A stretch of DNA of 39,733 nt from Acidobacteriota bacterium (GTDB taxonomy: Bacteria > Acidobacteriota > Blastocatellia > HR10 > JACQTD01): the NCBI GenBank assembly GCA_016210985.1, contig JACQTD010000081.1, positions 1 through 39,733 of the forward strand, in the 5' to 3' direction. The notes beneath the pieces were generated by a model that was given only the letters and a program-made list of their open reading frames with translations, had not been told where the DNA came from and ran no database searches. The translations under genes were made by a program, and so were the position numbers. Every line of letters begins with the position of its first letter. The first letter of the stretch is position 1. This document shows, piece by piece, positions 5,387 to 25,745 of the stretch.

Positions 5387-6060
5387 CTACTCATACTCGA
5401 GCGCCTTGACGAGCGATCCCCGCACCGCCAATTCGGCAGGCCAGAGGGCGGCGACAAATGCCGTGATGAACATCACCGGCACGACACCCAACGCAACGCA
5501 AAGGCGTAGATGTCCGTGATCGCCAGGTTCCCGCCAAACGCGCTCATCAGCCCACCCGTTTTCATAATGCCGCGAACGGTCAACTGCCGGTGGCCCCGGA
5601 TGGTCCCGAGTGCGACCTGGTTTCCAGTGCGCAATCCGTTCTGCTCCGCGAAGGATCCGGAGACGATGATCGAATCGGGCTGCGCGAGAAAGATCAGCGG
5701 GTCCTCGATCACCGCGTCCTCGTCGCTCTCCAGTTCGTACTCACGCAGGCTGCGATCGCCGGTCAGATCGACGCCGAGAATCAAGAGGCGCCCTTCGCCC
5801 CGAATGTTTGTATCGGCAACCGCCTCGATCACCGGTACCGCGACACCCACGGTCGGTGACGCCTGGACGGTGTCGAGTACCTCTTCCGGGAAGCCGGTTT
5901 CGCCGGCCGACACCTGAAGCTCCGTTTTTCCGGCGATGCGGTCGATGGTCAGTGAGAACGCCGACAAGACGCTTCGGTTCGTCGGCCAGAATAACGGGGG
6001 GATAGATGGATAGCGCGCGGGCAATCGCAACGCGCTGCCGCTCGCCGCCCGAGGGTCTTG
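5387..6060 (-). pseudogene. Degraded MacB/DevC-like ABC exporter: ATPase fragment fused to FtsX-type permease fragments
   Basis: [27 protein letters not shown] (5975-6055) abuts [18 protein letters not shown]...NLAITDIYA (approx 5493-5979), then out-of-frame FtsX C-terminus ALGVVPVMFITAFVAALWPAELAVRGSLVKALEYE. Confidence 0.75.
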
Positions 6061-6141
6061 ACGAGAGAAGAAGAACCGCGGACGCTCGGAGCGCTAAACA
6101 CGGCAGATCAAGCCGGGCGAGGACTCGTATGGAGGATCCGC

Positions 6142-6900
6142 ATGCCTGCCAAGACGACGAAGAAACGGCCGGGGAAGCGAGTGAGGAAGTCCGCGGGGAA
6201 ACCTGCGCCGAAGCCAGCGCGCGGGAGTGCTATAAAGCATACGTCCGCCCAGCGGCCCCCGGAGGGACCAGGGCGGTCCCTGAAGGTAGAGGTTCAGGCG
6301 ACGCTTTCGAGTCTCATGCAGATGAGCACCCAACGCGACCGCGAAAACCTGGCGCGGTTCGGCATCACCGCGAACAAGTCCTTCGGTGTGTCGATGTCCA
6401 ACATGCAGGCGCTGGCGAATCGTCTCGGGAGAAATCACGAGCTCGCCGTCGCCTTATGGGATACCGGCTGGAACGAGGCCCGAATGCTGGCATCCTTGAT
6501 CGACGAGCCGGGGCGGGTTACACCAGCGCAGATGGACCGTTGGTGCCGCGACTTCGACAACTGGGCCATCTGCGACACCGTCTGCTTTTTCCTGTTTGAC
6601 CGGACACCGCACGCCTGGTCAATGGTCGCGAAGTGGAGCCTCAAGCGCGACGAGTTCGTCAAGCGCGGCACTTTTGCGCTGATGGCCAGCCTCGCCCTCC
6701 ACGACAAGCGCGGCGCCGACGAACGGTTTGTCGGGGGCCTGGACTTGATTGAACGCGCCGCCTCCGACGAGCGAAACTTCGTCAAGAAGGGCGTGAGCTG
6801 GGCCCTGCGCGGGATCGGCAGGCGCAACGCCGCGCTCCATGCCGCCGCGGTGGCCGTGGCCCGAAATCTGACGGCCTCCCCGGAGGCCGCGGCGCGCTAG
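6142..6900 (+). CDS. DNA alkylation repair family protein (AlkD-like)
   Basis: [51 protein letters not shown]...-type motifs; ggagg RBS upstream of ATG 6142. Confidence 0.85.
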
Positions 6901-7320
6901 GTGGGGAGGGGTGCGCTCAAGGAGCTCAGGTAATATTCTTCGCCCGAAAAAGTAAAGTGATAAGTGGCGTTAAGGCCTTCTGACCGATGTCGTTGGAACG
7001 TAATCGATAATCCTCTAAGAAATCCCGAAATGCTCCGGGGGCGAAGGCTTTGCCCGACTCGCTTCGGTTTCTTGTGAGGAAACCTACGGGCAACGTGGCC
7101 TTCAGCATCCGAGCCGGCAATCACGTATACCGTTTCTTGCTTCTTCTGCAAAGGCTTGTCCACTTCTCGCAAGAATGCTTTCCGATTCTCGAGGAACGGA
7201 CTGATAACCTCTTCGCCGGCGGGACAAACGGCCATGCAGTAAACGGAGCGGGCTACACTACGCACATTTTCGCGGTTCATGCGACACACAATACTCAAGA
7301 GCGTCTTAGCGGCTCGAGTC
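6897..7320 (-). pseudogene. 3' remnant of a 4Fe-4S / SCP2-type protein
   Basis: VCRMNRENVRSVARSVYCMAVCPAGEEVISPFLENRKAFLREVDKPLQKKQETVYVIAGSDAEGHVARRFPHKK...SEGLNATYHFTFSGEE; N-terminal part absent. Confidence 0.5.
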
Positions 7321-7785
7321 AGCGACGCAATCTCTCTCGGGCTAGAAGCGCCGTCGCCTGGTGTTGGGCTTGTTGCCAGGCGGGAATGGCATTGCGCAAT
7401 ACCTGCCGGCCATTCGACGTCAATCGAAGCAAGCTCGTCCGTCCATCTTCGCCGGGCCGCGTGACCAACCATCCTTGAGCCCGCATTCTCTCGCCATCCC
7501 TGCTAAGCGTCGATTTATCCAGCTGTAAGGCGTGGCAGACCGCCTGAGGTTTGGCTTCCCCAAAACAGGAGACCGCAACAAGATTAGTGTTTGAGGTGCC
7601 GTCCAACAGGGTGTTCCAGCCGGCGGGGGCAGCCTCCGCTTCACGCTGTCGCGGGGGCCGTTGCTCCGTGATCAGTCTGACCTGCATGAACCAGCATTGA
7701 GTTCTGCATCGAAGAGTGTGAAGATGGCCGGGCACTTGTGGCAATCCCGATCGAGGTATGGATGCGTCTTGTAATCGCTCATCCA
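7319..7785 (-). pseudogene. MarR-family regulator, probably degraded in its N-terminal half
   Basis: CHALQLDKSTLSRDGERMRAQGWLVTRPGEDGRTSLLRLTSNGRQVLRNAIPAWQQAQ is MarR-like; N-terminal segment poorly conserved. Confidence 0.5.
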
Positions 7786-7859
7786 TCGTCGTGTGTCTTG
7801 TTCGGTTTGCTTGAACTTGAGTGGACGCCTTGTGGCCGGATTCGGAGAGGAGGAAACCT

Positions 7860-9479
7860 ATGAGATCCACACCTTGGAGTATCTGGACGATCGTCCTGGT
7901 AATCCTTTCAGTCTTGTCTCCGTGGGGGAACGCCCGGGCTGTAGACGAGAGCGCCGACAGTTCTCTGCCGCGAGCCGCAACAAGCACGGCCGCAACCGCC
8001 CCGCCAAAGCGTACTCCGGTCCAACTTCCCGAACGGCCGAATATCCTGATCCTCATGACCGATCAGGAGCGTTTCCCGCAGCACTGGCCGGAAGGTTGGG
8101 CGGATGCCAACCTTCCAAATCGGAAACGACTGGCGGACACCGGATTGAGCTTCAGGCGGGCAATCTGTAACTCGGCCATGTGCTCTCCGAGCCGCAGCAC
8201 GTTGTTTACCGGCCTCTACCCGGCACAGCACGGCGTTAAGTCTACGCTGTCTTTCGGGGGAAGCATCTCGAATACGGAACCCACGCTGCCGCTGAACATG
8301 CAGAACCTGGCGCGGATCCTGGCGTCCGCCGGTTATGAGATTGTTTATAAGGGCAAATGGCACATGAGCAAGGACCCCAACGGGCAGAAGCCAAGGCCCC
8401 AGGACGTGGATGCCTATGGTTTCAGTCAATGGGACGGATACGAGTACGGCGGTAGCACGGATCCCGATGAGTTCGGAGGCGGGGAATCCGATTTCGATCA
8501 GCGCGTAGTGGATGATGCCATAGCTTATCTTAAGTCCCTGCCGCCTTCATCCGGCACGACCAGACCCTTCGCCCTGGTTGTTTCGCTGGCCAACCCGCAT
8601 GACGTGCTGGCCTACCCCCGGACTTGGGACAATGACGCGGTTTATCGCGCCACCGCTGACTTCAACCAGGGCATTGAACTGCCTCCCACCCTCGACCTGG
8701 ACAATCTCGCTTCCAAGCCCACGGCCCAACAGCAGGCGCTGATGCTGCTGAATGCCGGATTGGGCATCCTCCCCACTGAACTGCAACGGCGGCGGTATGT
8801 CAACTTCTACGGCTTTGTTCACAAGGTCGTCGACCGCCAGATCGGCCAGGTGATCGATGCGCTGGAACAGCGGGGCCTCCGAGAATCCACGGTCGTGATT
8901 CGCACGGCCGACCACGGCGAATTGGGGCTGTCGCACGGGGGACTCCGGCAGAAAATCTTCAACGCCTATGAAGAATGCCTCCGGGTACCGCTGGTCTTTT
9001 CCAATCCCATTCTGTTTCCAACCGCCAAAGTAACCGATTCGCTGGCCTCACTCATCGACCTGCTTCCCACCCTGGCCTCTCTGGCCCAGGTTCCCGATCG
9101 AGACCGCTGGGTGTTTCGCGGGTTCGATCTTTCGCCCGTATTGAAGAATCCGGCCGCTTCGGTTCAGAATGCGCTGCTATTCACTTTCGATGACCAGAAT
9201 GTAGGTCAGGGCGATGGGCAAACCACCGTGAAACAGCCGAATCACCTTCGCTGTATCCGCGAGACGAACTGGAAGTACGCCAGGTACTTCGATCCGGGCG
9301 GGGTCGAGCCCGAGCAGTACGAAATGTACGACCTGCTGAACGATCCGCTTGAAGTCAACAACCTGGTCGATAATCCAGCCTTCGCCGCGAAACGGGCGGA
9401 ATTGGCGCAGAAGTTGGCGATGCTGGAGACCGATCGACTAGCCCCTTTGCCTGGACCACACGCGAATCCTGCGAGATAG
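7860..9479 (+). CDS. Secreted sulfatase (Cys-type, CSPSR motif)
   Basis: Signal peptide; RPNILILMTDQERFPQHWP; CSPSRSTLFTGLYPAQHGV; RTADHGELGLSHGG. Confidence 0.93.
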   Translation: MRSTPWSIWTIVLVILSVLSPWGNARAVDESADSSLPRAATSTAATAPPKRTPVQLPERPNILILMTDQERFPQHWPEGWADANLPNRKRLADTGLSFRRAICNSAMCSPSRSTLFTGLYPAQHGVKSTLSFGGSISNTEPTLPLNMQNLARILASAGYEIVYKGKWHMSKDPNGQKPRPQDVDAYGFSQWDGYEYGGSTDPDEFGGGESDFDQRVVDDAIAYLKSLPPSSGTTRPFALVVSLANPHDVLAYPRTWDNDAVYRATADFNQGIELPPTLDLDNLASKPTAQQQALMLLNAGLGILPTELQRRRYVNFYGFVHKVVDRQIGQVIDALEQRGLRESTVVIRTADHGELGLSHGGLRQKIFNAYEECLRVPLVFSNPILFPTAKVTDSLASLIDLLPTLASLAQVPDRDRWVFRGFDLSPVLKNPAASVQNALLFTFDDQNVGQGDGQTTVKQPNHLRCIRETNWKYARYFDPGGVEPEQYEMYDLLNDPLEVNNLVDNPAFAAKRAELAQKLAMLETDRLAPLPGPHANPAR

Positions 9480-9503
9480 CGTCCTAGCTTAACGCACCGG
9501 AGT

Positions 9504-11636
9504 TTGATCATGATCCATATTACGAGCATAGCCGTGGGAGTCGTCCTGCTGACTCAGCTGGTTTTCGTGGGGGAGGTTTCCACCGAGGCCAGGAAACGCC
9601 AGGCGGTACCGCCCAACATACTGTTCATCATCCTGGACGACGTGGGAAAAGACCAATTGGCTTCCTTCAACTCCGCCTCGCTCCTCACCCCTCGGACACC
9701 CGACATCGATGCCATCGCTGCCGCAGGCGTGAAGTTTACAAACCTGTATACAATGCCGGAGTGCTCGCCGAGCCGGGCCTGCTTTTTTACCGGGCGCTAC
9801 CCGCTTCGCACTGGCGTCGATGAGGCCATCCTATTCAACGATCTGCCCGCGGCCCAGATCTCACCCTTTGAGGTGACCACTCCCCGGGTGCTGGCCACGG
9901 CCGGATACGCGAGCGCCATGGTCGGGAAGTACCACCTCGGCGGACCGGAGAATAATCCGGACGGGAATCGCACGCCGATCGTCCTTGGTTGGGACTACTT
10001 CGAAGGCAATATGCGCGGAGGGCCTCCCTTCATTGATACCACGCTCGGTGGACAGTACACGGCCGACAAGGAGAAATACTCGTGTGGCTTTCCCGTCGGA
10101 ACTCAGAAGGGCGCCTGCTGGTTTCAGGATTCGAACAACCCGGCCCGGTGCGATGATATCCGGGGAGCCGGGTACACCGGGCAACAGTGCGTCTCGCTCG
10201 GGGGAATTCCAGCGCTCGACCTGCAAGGGAATTTTGCGTCGTCGTGTAAGGACGCTTCGAGCAAAGCGCCTGATTTCACGACCTTGAATGGCTATTATGT
10301 GTGGCCGAAGGTGATCGCCGACTCGGGTAAGCTCGAAACCCTCACCTCACGGAAATACATGACGATCGATCAGACTGACGCGGCGGTCGAGTGGGTACAG
10401 AAGCAGACCGCCGGCGGTCGTCCATGGATGTGCACGGTGAGCTACAACTCCGACCACACCCCTTACCAACTGCCGCCTGAAGACCTCTATGCCCCTCGCC
10501 CGCCGTTTCTCACTCCCGGCGATTGCAGCGGCACGGAGGCGCAGCGGATCGTCAGCGACCTGATGATCGAGGCCATGGATAAGGAGATCGGGCGGCTGCT
10601 GGTCGGCATCGGGCTCGCCAACCGTGGCATGGCCGGCGAGTTGGTGTACAAGCCTGAAGCAACCAATACGATGGTGATCGTTGTGGGCGACAACGGCAGC
10701 TACCTGACCAGCGTGAAGCTTCCCTACGATCCGCTCAGAGCCAAGGGTACCCCTTACGAAACCGGCGTATTGACACCATTGATCGTGGCCGGCCCGCTCG
10801 TGGCCAACCCGGGCCGCAGTGTCCATCATATGGTCAATGCGGTGGACCTTTTTGCGGTCTTCGGTGAGATCGCCGGGGTGGATGTTCGTGCCGTAGTACC
10901 CCGTTCGCACATCCTCGACAGCCAACCCATGCTGGCCTATCTGACCAATCCGAATCAGGCAAGCATACGCCAGTACAACTTTACGCAGCTCGGTAATGGA
11001 GCGAAGGCGGCTTCGATCAAACTGTGGCCGTGTGTCGTCCAGGCCGGGCCGGCGTCCGTCTGTACGGATATTCTCATTGACAAAGAAGGTATCTGCGAAG
11101 AATTGGGCGGGACCTGGTTCGGCCCGACCGAGGGCCGGCCCGATCCCCCCAACCCAACCTGCTGCGCACTGAGAGAGACCGGCCAGTTTCGTAATCTGGC
11201 TATCATACCTACGCGGGTCTGGGCCATTCGCGATTCCCGGTATAAGCTGGTGATGCTGGAGCGGGCCGAGTGCGACAGTGGTCTTGGGTCATACGAGTTC
11301 TATGACCTGACGCCTCGTCCCGTAGTCAATGCTCTTGGCCTCGATCTCGCCCCTTTCGATCTGCTGACAAATGGTCAGCCGGTGGGATTGACCGGCGAGC
11401 AGATGGCGGGCCTTCAGGAACTGAAGGCAGAGTTGAACAGACTCCTGAGTTCAGAGGCCGCCTGTCCGGGCGATGGGAACCTCGACAAGCGGGTCGATAG
11501 CGGGGACCTTTTCGGCGTTGAACGGTACCGGGGCCAGCCGAGCGTCTTCGATTTCAACCGGGATGGAACAACCGATGACCTGGATCGGCAGGTTGTCCTG
11601 GACCATTTTGGAACCGACTGTCGCCCCCTGCGGTGA
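9504..11636 (+). CDS. Secreted sulfatase (CSPSR motif) with C-terminal dockerin-like domain
   Basis: PPNILFIILDDVGKDQLASFN; ECSPSRACFFTGRYPLRTG; C-terminal CPGDGNLDKRVDSGDLFGVERYRG...DFNRDGTTDDLDRQVVLDHFG. Confidence 0.9.
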   Translation: MIMIHITSIAVGVVLLTQLVFVGEVSTEARKRQAVPPNILFIILDDVGKDQLASFNSASLLTPRTPDIDAIAAAGVKFTNLYTMPECSPSRACFFTGRYPLRTGVDEAILFNDLPAAQISPFEVTTPRVLATAGYASAMVGKYHLGGPENNPDGNRTPIVLGWDYFEGNMRGGPPFIDTTLGGQYTADKEKYSCGFPVGTQKGACWFQDSNNPARCDDIRGAGYTGQQCVSLGGIPALDLQGNFASSCKDASSKAPDFTTLNGYYVWPKVIADSGKLETLTSRKYMTIDQTDAAVEWVQKQTAGGRPWMCTVSYNSDHTPYQLPPEDLYAPRPPFLTPGDCSGTEAQRIVSDLMIEAMDKEIGRLLVGIGLANRGMAGELVYKPEATNTMVIVVGDNGSYLTSVKLPYDPLRAKGTPYETGVLTPLIVAGPLVANPGRSVHHMVNAVDLFAVFGEIAGVDVRAVVPRSHILDSQPMLAYLTNPNQASIRQYNFTQLGNGAKAASIKLWPCVVQAGPASVCTDILIDKEGICEELGGTWFGPTEGRPDPPNPTCCALRETGQFRNLAIIPTRVWAIRDSRYKLVMLERAECDSGLGSYEFYDLTPRPVVNALGLDLAPFDLLTNGQPVGLTGEQMAGLQELKAELNRLLSSEAACPGDGNLDKRVDSGDLFGVERYRGQPSVFDFNRDGTTDDLDRQVVLDHFGTDCRPLR

Positions 11637-16207: not shown

Positions 16208-17932
16208 ATGTATGTGGATCGTGTCCCCAATCGCAACTCCCCGCCTGCCATTCTGCTGCGCGAGGCTTGGCGTGAGGGGGGCCGCATCCGTAAGCGTACC
16301 ATCGCCAACCTTTCACACTGGCCGGCTCACAAAGTGGAAGCCCTTCGCCGTGTACTGCGGGATGAGCCGGTGGTCAGCCCGCAGGAGATTTTCCGCATCC
16401 AGCAGTCTCTCCCCCACGGCCACGTGGAGGCCATACTCGGCACCATCGGCAAACTTGGGCTGGACGGGTTGATCGCCAGCAAACGTTCTCGATCACGTGA
16501 CTTGGTCTTGGCCATGATCGTTGAGCGGCTGATTCACCCGTGCTCGAAGTTGGCTACGACGCGATTGTGGGACTCGACGACGCTGGGTGAAGAACTGGCG
16601 GTTTCGGATGCCGATGAGGACGAGTTGTATCAGGCGCTGGATTGGCTCTTGGAGCATCAGGAGCGGATCGAGAAGAAGCTGGCCGGCCGGCACCTGTCGG
16701 AGGGGTCGAGGGTGCTCTACGACGTCAGCAGCAGTTATTACGAGGGACGCACCTGCCCGCTGGCATGTTTCGGCTACGACCGGGACGGGAAGAAGGGATT
16801 GCCCATCATCGTCTACGGCGTGCTGGCCGATCCGGCCGGGCGGCCGGTGGCGGTGGATGCGGTACGCACGTTCCGTGTCTATCCGGGGAACACCGGAGAT
16901 CCGACGACGGTTCCTGACCAAGTGAAGAAGCTGCGCGATCAGTTTGGTCTATCGCGGGTGGTCTTGGTGGGTGATCGGGGGATGCTGACCGAGACGCAGA
17001 TCGAGAAGCTCAAGGCCTACCCGGGACTGGGCTGGATCTCAGCCTTGCGCAGCCGCTCGATCCGGGAGTTGGTCGATAGCGGATGTCTGCAAATGTCGTT
17101 GTTTGACCAGCAGAATCTGGCTGAGATCAGTTCACCCGATTATCCGGGCGAGCGACTGATCGCCTGTTTCAATCCGCTGTTGGCTGAAGAGCGCAAGCGG
17201 CAACGCCAGGCGCTGTTGGAGGAGACCGAGAAGCAACTTAAAAAGATCGCTCGCGAGGTGACCCGGCGGACCAAGACACCGATGGGCAAGGCGGAGATTG
17301 CCCTGAAGGTGGGTCGCGTGATTGATCGGTTCAAGATGGCCAAGCACTTGGAGTTGACGATCCAGGACGGCCGCTTGCAATGGGCCCGTTGCGAGGCGGC
17401 CATTGAGCGCGAAGCGCAACTGGATGGCATCTATGTCATCCGGACCAGTGAAGAGCGAGAACAGCTATCGGCCGACGAGACCGTGCGCCAGTATAAGAGC
17501 CTGGCTCAGGTGGAGCGGGCGTTCCGATGCCTGAAGGGGATTGACCTGCGCGTCCGGCCGATTCATCACCGTACGGTGGATCACGTCCGGGCGCACATCT
17601 TCCTCTGCATGCTGGCCTACTACGTCCAGTGGCACATGCGAGAGGCGCTCTCGCCTATTCTCTTCCAGGACGAAGAGCTGCAGCAGGATCGCCAAACGCG
17701 GGATGCGGTTTCTCCGGCTCAATCCTCTGCCTCCGTGAAGAGAAAAAAGGCTACTCACCTCACGCCCGATGGCCTGCCGGTCCACAGCTTCGACACGCTC
17801 TTGCTGGCCTTGGCGACCCGTACCCGAAATACCTGCACGATCAAGTCCGACCCGTCTTCCAAATCGACCTTCCGTCAAATCACCGACCCCAGCCCGCTGC
17901 AGAGCCGCGCCTTCGAATTGCTCGGATTGTAG
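16208..17932 (+). CDS. IS1634-family-like transposase
   Basis: VLYDVSSSYYEGRTCPLACFGYDRDGKKGLPIIVYGVL; VLVGDRGMLTETQIEKL; VERAFRCLKGIDLRVRPIHHRTVDHVRAHIFLCMLAYYVQWHM. Confidence 0.93.
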   Translation: MYVDRVPNRNSPPAILLREAWREGGRIRKRTIANLSHWPAHKVEALRRVLRDEPVVSPQEIFRIQQSLPHGHVEAILGTIGKLGLDGLIASKRSRSRDLVLAMIVERLIHPCSKLATTRLWDSTTLGEELAVSDADEDELYQALDWLLEHQERIEKKLAGRHLSEGSRVLYDVSSSYYEGRTCPLACFGYDRDGKKGLPIIVYGVLADPAGRPVAVDAVRTFRVYPGNTGDPTTVPDQVKKLRDQFGLSRVVLVGDRGMLTETQIEKLKAYPGLGWISALRSRSIRELVDSGCLQMSLFDQQNLAEISSPDYPGERLIACFNPLLAEERKRQRQALLEETEKQLKKIAREVTRRTKTPMGKAEIALKVGRVIDRFKMAKHLELTIQDGRLQWARCEAAIEREAQLDGIYVIRTSEEREQLSADETVRQYKSLAQVERAFRCLKGIDLRVRPIHHRTVDHVRAHIFLCMLAYYVQWHMREALSPILFQDEELQQDRQTRDAVSPAQSSASVKRKKATHLTPDGLPVHSFDTLLLALATRTRNTCTIKSDPSSKSTFRQITDPSPLQSRAFELLGL

Positions 17933-21321: not shown

Positions 21322-21830
21322 TCACTCGCCGTCGGATTCATCCCGTCCCTCGGCCGTCATTCTTTCATTGCGCTCGCGCAGGATCCAATAAACTGCGCCG
21401 AGCGCAGGCGTTGCGCCCGCCAGCGCCGCAATTGTGGCCGGGCTTGTGGATTTGGTATCAAGAATGACGAACTTTAGAGCCAGGGCGATCAGCGCAATGA
21501 GCACCACGGTCTTGACCTGGACGATGCTTTCCCGACGCAAGGCAACCCGAATAATGGATTGCTTGAACTCCATGGCGACGAGGAGCGTCATCACCACGCC
21601 GAAAAGCATCTGGAAGGCTTCGTGTCCAGCGGATCGATCGCACCCGTCGGCCGGCGCAGTACCAGGCGGATGAGCAGCTGCATCAACGCAAGCGCGATGA
21701 CCACCGCAATCACCAGACTCAGCACGATGGTCACGACATGCTCGAAGCGCTCGTACAACCCCATGGGTGACCATTCGTCGCGCAATCCTGTCGGAAGCTT
21801 GTGCGAGGTTTCTTGCCACTGAGCGGAGGC
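21322..21830 (-). pseudogene. PsiE-like membrane protein with single frameshift
   Basis: MGLYERFEHVVTIVLSLVIAVVIALALMQLLIRLVLRRPTGAIDPLD in one frame continues as HEAFQMLFGVVMTLLVAMEFKQSIIRVALRRESIVQVKTVVLIALIALALKFVIL in the other. Confidence 0.7.
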
Positions 21831-22500
21831 GGGTTGTTCGGCCGCCGACCTTCGCGTGCATGTGGTCACGATCCCAAGTGTATGAATTAGAACCACATTT
21901 GCCCAGGGGTGCAACCAGCACCCTTTCGTTCATTGTTCGCTGGAGGTTGGTCGCGTGGCTTTCGGTGGATGGCAAGCGCTGGCTAGGGTTGTATAGGTTG
22001 GTTGTCAGGAAGGTAATTACTTTCATTTCTTAGCCTCTTGCCGCTCGGTGAATGAAGGCCGAAAGGGCTGTCGTTCCGCGCACCAGGCTCAGGAGATGAA
22101 ATAGACCAGCCACGGTACGAGTCCCAGCACTCGCATACGCACGCTGACGCAGCTGCGATAAGCTGTGCCGTGTGAGGGGATTCACATCCGGATCTCCTAC
22201 AACCTCGGATTCGTCATCGCATTGCGTTCCATGATCCTTCGAGCCCGTATCAAGTGCACGTCACGATTGAATCGCGAGTCTACACTTGGGCTGAGGAACG
22301 GGGCTATCTCTGCCTAAACAGTCCGCTCCTCATCTGTCGAGGATTTCACCATGCATGGCGAGACCAAGGTACCGAACTTCGGAGTCCATTCTTTGCGAAT
22401 GAGCATCGGCGCTTCCTCGAAGTGCCGCCAAGGGTTGTAGGAATTTGACCAAGGCTCCTCGACAGAGATGTCTATCCCTCTGACGGTTTGCATGGCCGAA

Positions 22501-23331
22501 TCAGTAATTCATTAGCACGAGTTCATCGACGTTCCTGCGGCTATGCCCATTGCACGAGATTAGAGACTTGGAGCGCACCAGGATTGTTCGGAACGTTGCT
22601 GGGTACAATTCTCGCAGATGTTCTGCATTTGCGATGGTCACCATTACTCTTACGTTGCGCGAAGTGAGTTCCCTAATTAAGATGGCGAGATCTTCGTGAT
22701 CTTTGGGCGTGAATGTCTCTGGCGCATACCTATTGAAACCAATGCCGTCCGTGGCACCTCTGGGATACGGCGGGTCAAAGAACACGAAGTCCCCTTCTCT
22801 TGCGCGCGCAGTGGCTATTCGAAAGTCTTCAGCCCTAAGTCTCGCGGTCATTAAAGCCTCTGACGCACTCTCAAGGTGTTTCATACTCCACATGCGATCA
22901 GGAAGTCGGTCGCCTATTGGGACGTTGAATGTCCCTAGGCGGTTCACGCGATAGAGTCCATTCCATGAGAGACGGTTCAAATAGGCGAATCGTACCGCTC
23001 GCTGTATGAGGCCGCGGGGCGACGAAGCTCGGAAGGTGTAATACGCATCTACAGATGCAGATAGCCCTTGGAGTCGACGCTTAAGTTGCGGGAATCGATC
23101 TCGCAGGACTCGGTAGAAGTTTACGAGATCGTGGTTGGTATCTGATAGAACAGCTCTACGGGGGCGAATACAAAAGAAAAGAGCCCCTGCACCTACCATT
23201 GGCTCATAATACGTCCCCCAGGTCGGAGGAAGGAGCGACTTCAGAGTTGGCGCCAGACCCTGTTTCGCACCAGCCCAGCGAAGCACGGGGCGGGACGTGC
23301 CATCCAGTTGATTTCTGACGTGTTCTGTCAT
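22501..23331 (-). CDS. DNA adenine methylase (Dam family)
   Basis: PVLRWAGAKQGLAPTLKSLLP; YYEPMVGAGALFF; SDTNHDLVNFYRVLRD; FVFFDPPYPRGATDGIGFNRY (DPPY). Confidence 0.93.
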   Translation of the reverse strand: MTEHVRNQLDGTSRPVLRWAGAKQGLAPTLKSLLPPTWGTYYEPMVGAGALFFCIRPRRAVLSDTNHDLVNFYRVLRDRFPQLKRRLQGLSASVDAYYTFRASSPRGLIQRAVRFAYLNRLSWNGLYRVNRLGTFNVPIGDRLPDRMWSMKHLESASEALMTARLRAEDFRIATARAREGDFVFFDPPYPRGATDGIGFNRYAPETFTPKDHEDLAILIRELTSRNVRVMVTIANAEHLRELYPATFRTILVRSKSLISCNGHSRRNVDELVLMNY

Positions 23332-23447
23332 CTACCTCTCTTGACAACTCGATAGATTCATAACGATCTGGCACTCAGCCGCTGCCCGCATGAATCCTGA
23401 CAAGGTCCAGCGGCCATCTGTTCAAGCATCTTGGTTGACGGCACAGC

Positions 23448-25745
23448 TTATTCTATCGAGATCTCGGTCGACTCGGGCTCTGATATCTGGATGTTAAGCC
23501 ACCCCAAAGTCTCCTCCAGAAAGGACAGCTGCTCCTCCGTAATTGGCAAGCTGACGCCTTTGGAGGCGTGCATAACTGGTTTCCTCAGATCATTCACTTG
23601 CACTATCCACTTCGTCCTAGCGTCCTTCGAGCCCTTCCCCCTGGCGAAGATCGGCTCAAAGGTTGTCCAGTTGGCTAGCATGATCTCGCGATAATCTATG
23701 AGATCAAAATTCTCTTCTCTACCTCCCTTCTTACCACCTTCTTCATTAATTCGGTCGTCCACCTTTTTTCGGACCCCTTTGGGCACGCCAGTGAAATACC
23801 ACCCTTGCTCTTCCGAACCGAACTCCTGCTTCAATTCTTCCAAAACCGTTACCTGCAGTGCTTGCTCTATTCTTTGGATAACCTGGAACGCTCGCGTGGT
23901 AGTTTGCGCCTTCTCTCGTTCCAAGAACTCGGAGAGTCCTGGAGGATCGAATGACGGATCGGCGCCTCTAATGAACTCTTCGACTCGCCGAGTTCCCGTG
24001 GTTTGGCCCTGAGTGCCGCGGAGCGATCGGAATTGACCAATCTGTGTGCCCGACATCCCCCCGAAGTATCTGCCTACCACGATGGCGAACGGCGTGACCA
24101 CCTTGAGCAGTTCATCGTTCGTTAAGTCGCGTAGTTTGTACCCCCTAACCTTTTCGAGATGATGAACGATGCTCTTTAAAACGTTTACGCAAACTGTAAC
24201 GCCGTCATTCATTGCCAGTCCGCCACCTTCTCCCGCACCTTTGTCCCATAAACTCGAAGCCTCTGTATGTAACACCTCAAAATAGCCGGTCAACAGTCTG
24301 CTGGTTCGTGCCATCGTGCCTGAATTATCCACGTCCCACAGAGGGCCGTATTCGATTACCTGCCCCTTCTTGACTTTTGCGATGAAAAACCCCGTCCGTT
24401 CCAAGGCACGAAACACGCTGGTAAGCGAGATGCAGCGGAGCTCAGTCCGGGTATCATCAGCCTTTAGAATGCGACCCTGAAAAGGCGACCCCAACTGAGT
24501 ATCAACTGCCTGAATCACCTTGGACAGAATCGCTTGAAGCCGGATCTCAGGATCGTCAGCATCCCAGTGCAGCTCTGCATACAGTTCTTGGAGAAGACTC
24601 TGCTTCACCTTCCTCTGCTCGGCGTTGATATCCACGAATAAGCGGGCCTGCTCACTAGCTGGGAGACCTACGAAGGCCATTACAGAGACAACACTCCTCG
24701 TGGCAAGAGGGTGACCGGCATATGCAAATAATCGATGCTGACCGTCGATGATCCATGCTACACGGTACGCGGGGCGAATATGTAACCACCCAAACGTTGA
24801 CACCCCGTCCGTCTCTTTTTGCTTTCCCCGGTCGAATGAGACCCACTTCGAATCTGCAATATTCACGACGATGTTCGTCGGGAACATCCCACCTTCCGTT
24901 ATGTACTCTCGAATGTTTCGCAGTCGAGATTTCTTTAACATTCGCTGATAGGCATCGATATCCGAAGGTTTACCTCGCGCTCGATGGGACACGAAGGCTA
25001 TCTTCAACAGATACTCTGGCGAAACGCTGAATGAATAGGCCGTGACCCCTGCCAGTTTTGTCCGAATAGCTGCTACGGTTAATTCCAAGCCTGGCACAGG
25101 TCGTCCGCGAAGGATGTCGGCCAAAAATTGATATCTGGCCGCCTCTCCAATCTGGCTGACGAGACCTTCGTAGTAAGCCAGATCGCTCTCTTCAAGCACG
25201 GGCACCCCTGCAACTGTAGCACGCGTCCGGTCATTTTCAGTGTAAATGAACCCTGTACTCCAAAACGTGAAGATGCTCGGACGCCTATGCGGGACCGGGT
25301 AAAGCACTTTAAGCGCCTTCGCAAAATTCTCTCTTAGGACAGTGTGCTTCGCGAGTTCCTTTGAAAAGTCGGCGAACTTGCGGGGCCTTGCACTCGACTT
25401 GCACTCTATCGCAAGACCGATCTCGTTATCGATAGCTACTGCGTCGATTTGGTTAGCGGGTGTCTTAGCGTCATTAGGATTCAGTAGCTGGTATGCTCCA
25501 CCGACACCGCTCAGAAATTGAAAACCCAGTCGGTACAACAAGGTCCATACACGGTCTTCGAACAGTTTATCAGGGGGTTTCGGCCTCTGAAGACGGGTCG
25601 TCGTCTTGTTCTTCTTGATCGTCTCCCAGCCTTCCGCTACCTCCTCGTCGACGAGCGGATTCCGGACACTCTTAAAATCGAATGACTTTGCTCGCCGTGA
25701 CGCTAGAGCACGGAGCTCCTTTGCAGCGAACATGTTCTCCAGCAT
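23448..25745 (-). CDS. Multidomain protein: PD-(D/E)XK-like N-terminus, DGQHR domain, HEPN-like C-terminus
   Basis: QIDAVAIDNEIGLAIECKSS; AWIIDGQHRLFAYAGHPLATRSVVSVMAFVGLPASEQARLFVDINAEQRKV; C-terminal NDLRKPVMHAS (Rx4H). Confidence 0.85.
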   Translation of the reverse strand: MLENMFAAKELRALASRRAKSFDFKSVRNPLVDEEVAEGWETIKKNKTTTRLQRPKPPDKLFEDRVWTLLYRLGFQFLSGVGGAYQLLNPNDAKTPANQIDAVAIDNEIGLAIECKSSARPRKFADFSKELAKHTVLRENFAKALKVLYPVPHRRPSIFTFWSTGFIYTENDRTRATVAGVPVLEESDLAYYEGLVSQIGEAARYQFLADILRGRPVPGLELTVAAIRTKLAGVTAYSFSVSPEYLLKIAFVSHRARGKPSDIDAYQRMLKKSRLRNIREYITEGGMFPTNIVVNIADSKWVSFDRGKQKETDGVSTFGWLHIRPAYRVAWIIDGQHRLFAYAGHPLATRSVVSVMAFVGLPASEQARLFVDINAEQRKVKQSLLQELYAELHWDADDPEIRLQAILSKVIQAVDTQLGSPFQGRILKADDTRTELRCISLTSVFRALERTGFFIAKVKKGQVIEYGPLWDVDNSGTMARTSRLLTGYFEVLHTEASSLWDKGAGEGGGLAMNDGVTVCVNVLKSIVHHLEKVRGYKLRDLTNDELLKVVTPFAIVVGRYFGGMSGTQIGQFRSLRGTQGQTTGTRRVEEFIRGADPSFDPPGLSEFLEREKAQTTTRAFQVIQRIEQALQVTVLEELKQEFGSEEQGWYFTGVPKGVRKKVDDRINEEGGKKGGREENFDLIDYREIMLANWTTFEPIFARGKGSKDARTKWIVQVNDLRKPVMHASKGVSLPITEEQLSFLEETLGWLNIQISEPESTEISIE

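Follow-up and report, generated by a model that had tools for sequence, protein, structure and literature searches.

The two genes at positions 22501–25745 encode a Dam-type adenine methylase and a 765-residue protein that joins a predicted PD-(D/E)XK nuclease, a DGQHR/ParB-fold domain and a Swt1-like HEPN domain. We consider, with moderate confidence, that they form a two-gene, restriction-modification-like, methylation-guarded defence module. Sequence comparison establishes which domains are predicted and which catalytic residues they carry, that an adenine methylase is tightly linked, and that this methylase has been exchanged; the reading of the mark, the gating, the cleavages and the anti-phage role are what we infer. 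An earlier note had proposed an unusual compact defence system. Its three-domain fusion and its co-occurrence with an adenine methylase were borne out by profiles and by a neighbourhood survey, but its uniqueness was weakened by a table published in 2013 (PMC3710099).

The locus and its methylase

The window, meaning the whole stretch of 39,733 nucleotides analysed here, comes from an acidobacterium and is contig 12 of a 3.85-Mb assembly that is 79% complete. As first described, the two genes lie on the same strand and in a block of lower GC content (approximately 52–53% for the unit, against approximately 59–63% in the flanks). Their features are as follows.

22501–23331, minus strand: Dam-type (D12 class) N6-adenine DNA methyltransferase, 276 aa (PF02086, TIGR00571, motifs)
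23332–23447, no strand: intergenic gap between the methylase and fusion genes, 116 bp, with no start/stop overlap
23448–25745, minus strand: fusion protein, predicted PD-(D/E)XK nuclease, DGQHR/ParB-fold and Swt1-like HEPN, 765 aa (open reading frame, homologues, alignment)
25101–25745, minus strand: N-terminal PD-(D/E)XK (Card1/Hjc-like) domain, approximately residues 1–215 (Pfam, PADLOC and Foldseek on homologues or model)
24126–25082, minus strand: central DGQHR/DndB (ParB/Srx fold) domain, approximately residues 222–540 (TIGR03187, PF14072, motif invariance)
23481–23939, minus strand: C-terminal Swt1-like HEPN domain, approximately residues 603–755 (PF18731, PDC-M34B, hhalign, AlphaFold2 helices)

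The methylase gene lies downstream of the fusion gene, contrary to most homologous loci, in which it lies upstream. Several of those loci also have overlapping genes or short gaps, unlike the pair in the window.

The methylase scored 120.5 bits with PF02086 and 189 bits with TIGR00571 (dam). It carries EPMVGAG as motif I and an intact catalytic DPPY at residues 186–189 (approximately 22765–22776), and the model score above cut-off together with the DPPY places it among the Dam-type N6-adenine methyltransferases. It is the sole D12 methylase in its genome assembly. Its nearest solved structure was DpnM (2dpm, E = 2.8e-37), followed by DNA adenine methylase chains such as 4gbe. Because of the resemblance to DpnM, a GATC-like target site is the best first guess. 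The window shows no avoidance of GATC (294 occurrences against 252.5 expected), and we treated this count as neutral for the defence reading.

Two further features of the surroundings were recorded. An open reading frame at 16208–17932, approximately 4.6 kb from the unit, encodes a transposase that we take by eye to be IS1634/IS4-like, and it may have a bearing on the mobility of the low-GC block. Beside the unit, a putatively PsiE-like membrane protein gene appears to be split over two frames (21322–22026 and 21591–21914) by a frameshift or an assembly error.

Domains of the fusion protein

When Pfam was run on the window fusion alone, neither terminal domain was evident; both surfaced on scanning 14 homologues. 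At the N terminus, Hjc matched 8 of the 14 members and Card1_endonuc 6 (best E = 4.9e-5), while the PADLOC profile CARF_PDDEXK matched 5 of 14 (best E = 4.9e-8). The predicted nuclease-site residues are E63, D101, E114 and K116, and the D...ExK motif reported from the first reading is present as Q99-I-D101...E114-C-K116 (D101–K116 at 25398–25445). D101, E114 and K116, as D-(E/Q)xK, are kept in 13 of 16 homologues, the motif being lost in L010 (ECR), L011 (ECT) and L087 (KCR). Together with the Hjc and Card1 matches, this conservation assigns the segment to the PD-(D/E)XK superfamily, as had been claimed. Foldseek with a model of the full-length fusion ranked Cdn1 and Card1 at the top, both weakly (E = 5.8e-3 and 0.2), and sequence searches of the PDB with the fusion protein returned no credible relative.

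The central domain exceeded the curated cut-offs of TIGR03187 (137.4 bits against 58.85) and PF14072 (48.8 against 29.1) and contains the motifs YQR, FPTN, DGQHR and LFxDIN. The DGQHR motif noticed originally lies at D334GQHR338 (24732–24746) and is intact in 15 of 15 homologues; with the profile scores, it identifies a DGQHR/DndB domain. The protein was too distant to be called DpdB or DndB, scoring 89.5 bits against the NF041060 cut-off of 300 for the former and 14.2 against 328 for the latter. Annotated phages gave only partial matches to the DGQHR region.

At the C terminus, the proposed Rx4H motif (R721-x4-H726, at 23568–23585) is kept in 14 of 14 homologues. PF18731 (HEPN_Swt1) matched 3 of the 14 members, and the PADLOC profile PDC-M34B matched the window fusion with E = 1.2e-7 and 9 of 14 members overall. 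The full PDC-M34B protein of L031 is itself a Swt1-HEPN protein (PF18731, 47.6 bits; cut-off 27.5), and hhalign matched the C-terminal alignment to it with E = 5.4e-9, R721 and H726 lining up with its own Rx4H. In two AlphaFold models (four sequences each, mean pLDDT 70 and 82), Rx4H falls where a helix ends and the following loop begins, as has been described for HEPN Rx4-6H motifs (PMC3710099). Foldseek of the C-terminal model against the PDB found no HEPN structure and returned only poor all-helical matches. The position of Rx4H at a helix end and the PF18731 similarity agree with the HEPN assignment of the earlier note, and an RNase role is predicted.

With identities between homologues down to 27%, the retention of D-(E/Q)xK, DGQHR and Rx4H at these frequencies is beyond chance. 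The reader and RNase motifs (15/15 and 14/14) are nevertheless kept more strictly than the DNase motif (13/16). In L087 (8570–10873), a Dam-linked fusion, the equivalents of E63, E114 and K116 are replaced while the D is kept and DGQHR and Rx4H are intact; from its residues it is probably a natural DNase-dead variant. The site is thus lost in three of 16 homologues, one of them Dam-linked, so DNA cutting is not essential everywhere. We had entertained the idea that loss of the DNase site is confined to loci without a methylase (L010 and L011), and this idea was dropped because Dam-linked L087 is degenerate too.

It is mainly because the reader and RNase motifs outlast the DNase motif that we gave weight to a methylation-guarded abortive module resembling a toxin-antitoxin system, which we regard as rather unlikely but deserving of attention. 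The HEPN RNase would then be the effector, restrained while the DGQHR domain senses host methylation, and the PD-(D/E)XK domain would serve mainly in DNA binding, its nuclease activity being dispensable. The motif pattern of L087 fits such a module, and HEPN proteins in restriction-modification operons have been proposed to be suicidal RNases (PMC3710099). On the other hand, most homologues across the sampled phyla retain the DNase site, so selection usually maintains it.

Methylase linkage and partner exchange

Protein, profile and plasmid searches yielded 16 distinct loci with the fusion protein, in Acidobacteriota, in Pseudomonadota (chromosomes and plasmids) and in the phylum sample around a Dormibacterota genome. 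Contig ends truncate L027 and L081, leaving 14 loci that could be resolved for neighbours; L028 carries the other half of the fusion gene of L004. A D12 gene is directly adjacent in 10 of the 14 (the window, L002, L003, L025, L026, L028, L036, L037, L082 and L087), and an MT-A70 adenine methylase lies directly upstream of the fusion in two others (L038 and L039). The remaining two, plasmid types pNL1 (L010) and Rhizobium/Agrobacterium (L011/L012), have no adjacent methylase. Methylase and nuclease genes are therefore linked, as in type II restriction-modification systems, in 12 of 14 resolvable loci. The earlier note had looked to both Dam-type methylases and defence islands as companions of the homologues. 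The first association was found, whereas the flanks of the window unit, on inspection, are not a defence island.

The eight Dam-linked genomes that were searched each have the linked Dam as their sole D12 methylase. No D12 methylase was found in the two MT-A70 genomes or in G104, in which the fusion gene runs to the contig end. Among 149 genomes sampled from the window's phylum, a similar Dam occurs anywhere in the genome in 27 (18%). The adenine methylase may be upstream of the fusion gene, downstream on the same strand, or convergent with it, so that the linkage is not one frozen arrangement and the pairing has survived rearrangement. It is hardly plausible that the two genes adjoin by chance or make up a selfish pair lacking a shared function. 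The 116-bp gap and absence of overlap in the window could be read that way, but an adjacent adenine methylase in 12 of 14 loci, in several gene orders and in distant hosts, cannot easily be, and chance adjacency was rejected on the neighbourhood survey.

Linked Dams cluster in a phylogenetic tree, to which L082 and L087 were added, with two label changes compared to 8.8 for shuffled labels (0 of 500 shuffles as low). Eight of the 10 linked Dams form one exclusive group (support 84/95); outside it are the Dam of the window, on a long branch, and that of L028, also unplaced. As the background Dams all came from the window's phylum, the clustering is indicative and is no proof of a single origin.

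The tree of fusion proteins divides by partner type. The fusions of the window and G294 (the genome of L028) share 65% identity over 372 residues, and 57% for the N-terminal piece, whereas identity between their Dams is only 34%. In the window the Dam gene is downstream, and in L028 it overlaps the fusion gene from upstream. Close fusions with Dams of 34% identity, differing gene order, and the MT-A70 and radical-SAM partners together suggest, at the sequence level, a constant fusion combined with an exchangeable modification module. Fast divergence of the window Dam is the alternative to partner exchange. If partners are exchanged, a nuclease bound to a single co-evolved site becomes less likely and a reader of the mark or of a common site more likely; with methylases swapped, strict matching of nuclease and methylase sites is uncertain.

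The same exchange bears on a DndB-like regulator, in which the fusion would limit or repress its partner methylase and have no direct anti-phage role. DndB is described as repressing the dnd operon in an ATP-dependent manner (PMC4507180; PMC12704722), and the domain is homologous. We nonetheless judge such a regulator decidedly unlikely, as a repressor would hardly be expected to carry two additional domains whose active-site residues are conserved, and the partner is replaced by the unrelated MT-A70 methylase family and by a different cassette.

That cassette, in pNL1 (L010, 10224–18136) and the Rhizobium/Agrobacterium plasmids (L011/L012, 4314–14702), encodes conserved DGQHR, radical-SAM, two GHKL (HSP90-like) ATPase and PIN_8 proteins. 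It adjoins a fusion homologue that has lost the DNase lysine. It is possibly a modification or defence cassette with a new kind of mark.

Proposed mechanism and comparison with known systems

In the methylation-guarded defence module that we favour, the Dam-type enzyme would methylate adenine at its target site throughout host DNA. The DndB/DGQHR ParB-fold domain would bind DNA and NTP and report the presence of the mark. On marked self DNA the fusion would hydrolyse NTP and release the DNA, as DndI does with phosphorothioate. On unmarked invader DNA it would stay engaged and the PD-(D/E)XK domain would cut, with the HEPN domain cleaving RNA as a co-effector or a suicide back-up. Precedents for a ParB-fold domain that reads a DNA mark and thereby controls a nuclease are SspE and DndI. 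The latter, a ParB-fold protein with DGQQR and an HNH nuclease, releases self DNA when phosphorothioate stimulates its ATPase (PMC11662687). Both ATP and GTP are bound by a DndB-like protein (PMC12704722). Besides these precedents, the module is favoured by the profiles for all three domains, by the methylase linkage in several gene orders, by the clustering of the linked Dams and by the division of the fusion tree according to partner. Counting against it are the loss of the DNase site in three homologues, the two plasmid types that have no methylase alongside, the lack of a defence island around the unit and the failure of Foldseek to match the C-terminal model to a HEPN structure.

If correct, the pair would be a very compact self/non-self system, in which one methylase and one protein supply the reader, the DNA cutter and the RNA cutter. 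ParB-fold domains would then read a methylated base as well as phosphorothioate (DndI, SspE), and the pair would offer a simple two-gene test bed for the coupling of a restriction-modification-like nuclease to a suicide RNase. Our broader, tentative suggestion for the family is one reader with DNase and RNase served by interchangeable modules (Dam, MT-A70, or radical-SAM/DGQHR/GHKL/PIN), the ParB-fold domain perhaps reading a base modification such as m6A as self. Such swapping of the modification module would also make the radical-SAM cassette of pNL1 and Rhizobium a possible place to look for a DNA modification of a new kind.

GmrSD type IV enzymes combine DUF262 (DGQQR) with a DUF1524 HNH nuclease. 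The window fusion had no Pfam match to GmrSD_N or HNH at E up to 1, and its motif is DGQHR. We judge it very improbable that the fusion is a type IV-like nuclease directed at m6A or otherwise modified DNA, with Dam adjacent for another reason. The DGQHR domain is related to the N-terminal domain of GmrSD (PMC4619093), and one member of the fusion family matches PF03235. However, a nuclease dependent on m6A would turn on the Dam-marked chromosome of its own host, and the methylase is consistently retained.

The domain combination is partly known. Anantharaman et al. (2013) list in their Table 1 a Swt1-like HEPN fused to ParB, exemplified by Saro_3948 (PMC3710099), so the fusion is less singular than first thought. 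No description of the methylase pairing or the three-domain system was found, and the open-licence papers searched described neither that pairing, nor the N-terminal nuclease, nor any experiment. Saro_3948 is probably the pNL1 homologue, the sole full-length N. aromaticivorans match in the plasmid collection. The entry shares ParB/DGQHR and Swt1-HEPN with the window fusion but names neither a partner methylase nor an N-terminal PD-(D/E)XK, and pNL1 belongs to the methylase-free branch.

Other systems resemble the pair in part. DndB and DpdB share the homologous DGQHR domain but each has a single domain and belongs to a multi-gene operon for sulfur or 7-deazapurine modification, whereas the window fusion has three domains. 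No open reading frame near the unit was recognised by eye as dpdA or another dpd gene. IscS-DndBCDE-DndI and SspABCD-SspE likewise use a ParB-fold DGQxR NTPase, fused to a DNase, to read the mark of a separate modification module, but their mark is phosphorothioate and their nuclease HNH, and they lack HEPN (PMC11662687); the window has a single adenine methylase. A Dnd phosphorothioation system was considered and set aside, with no TIGR03183 (dndC) match in the 79%-complete assembly and no dnd gene recognised in the window. DUF499-centred, BREX-related (Hma) systems also bring an adenine methylase, PD-(D/E)XK and HEPN into restriction machinery, but with an AAA+ ATPase and a helicase where the window has a ParB-fold domain and only two genes (PMC12839542). 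Type II systems of the DpnII type share a methylase for which DpnM is the closest solved structure, but the partner here is a 765-residue multi-domain NTPase-like protein with an RNase-like domain and no simple restriction enzyme.

The PADLOC candidate PDC-M34 (DUF5343 plus Swt1-HEPN), for which the open-licence papers searched yielded nothing, occurs at L031 (8409–9624) in a relative of the window's genome. The C-terminal domain of the fusion is related to its M34B, a Swt1-HEPN protein, but M34A is a DUF5343 protein, and PDC-M34 has neither DGQHR nor a PD-(D/E)XK fusion.

DGQHR proteins adjoin other modification operons (L089, L090, L088 and L014), which we counted in favour of the defence reading. 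In L089 and L090 the neighbouring genes are, as we take them by eye, DndC/DndD-like. The L088 operon (5993–10632) encodes a pair of D12 methylases together with one PD-(D/E)XK-like, one membrane and one DndB/DGQHR protein, and is a DpnII-like restriction-modification system with a DGQHR partner. On Acinetobacter plasmid pTR3_4 (L014, 427–4303), a methylase, a NotI-family endonuclease, a DGQHR protein and a 325-residue protein with no family matches are encoded in a tight row. Mrr-type restriction enzymes (Mrr_N plus Mrr_cat) lie near the Dam-fusion pair in two unrelated genomes (L002, 12446–13402; L028, 2003–3001); in other species, Mrr attacks methylated DNA.
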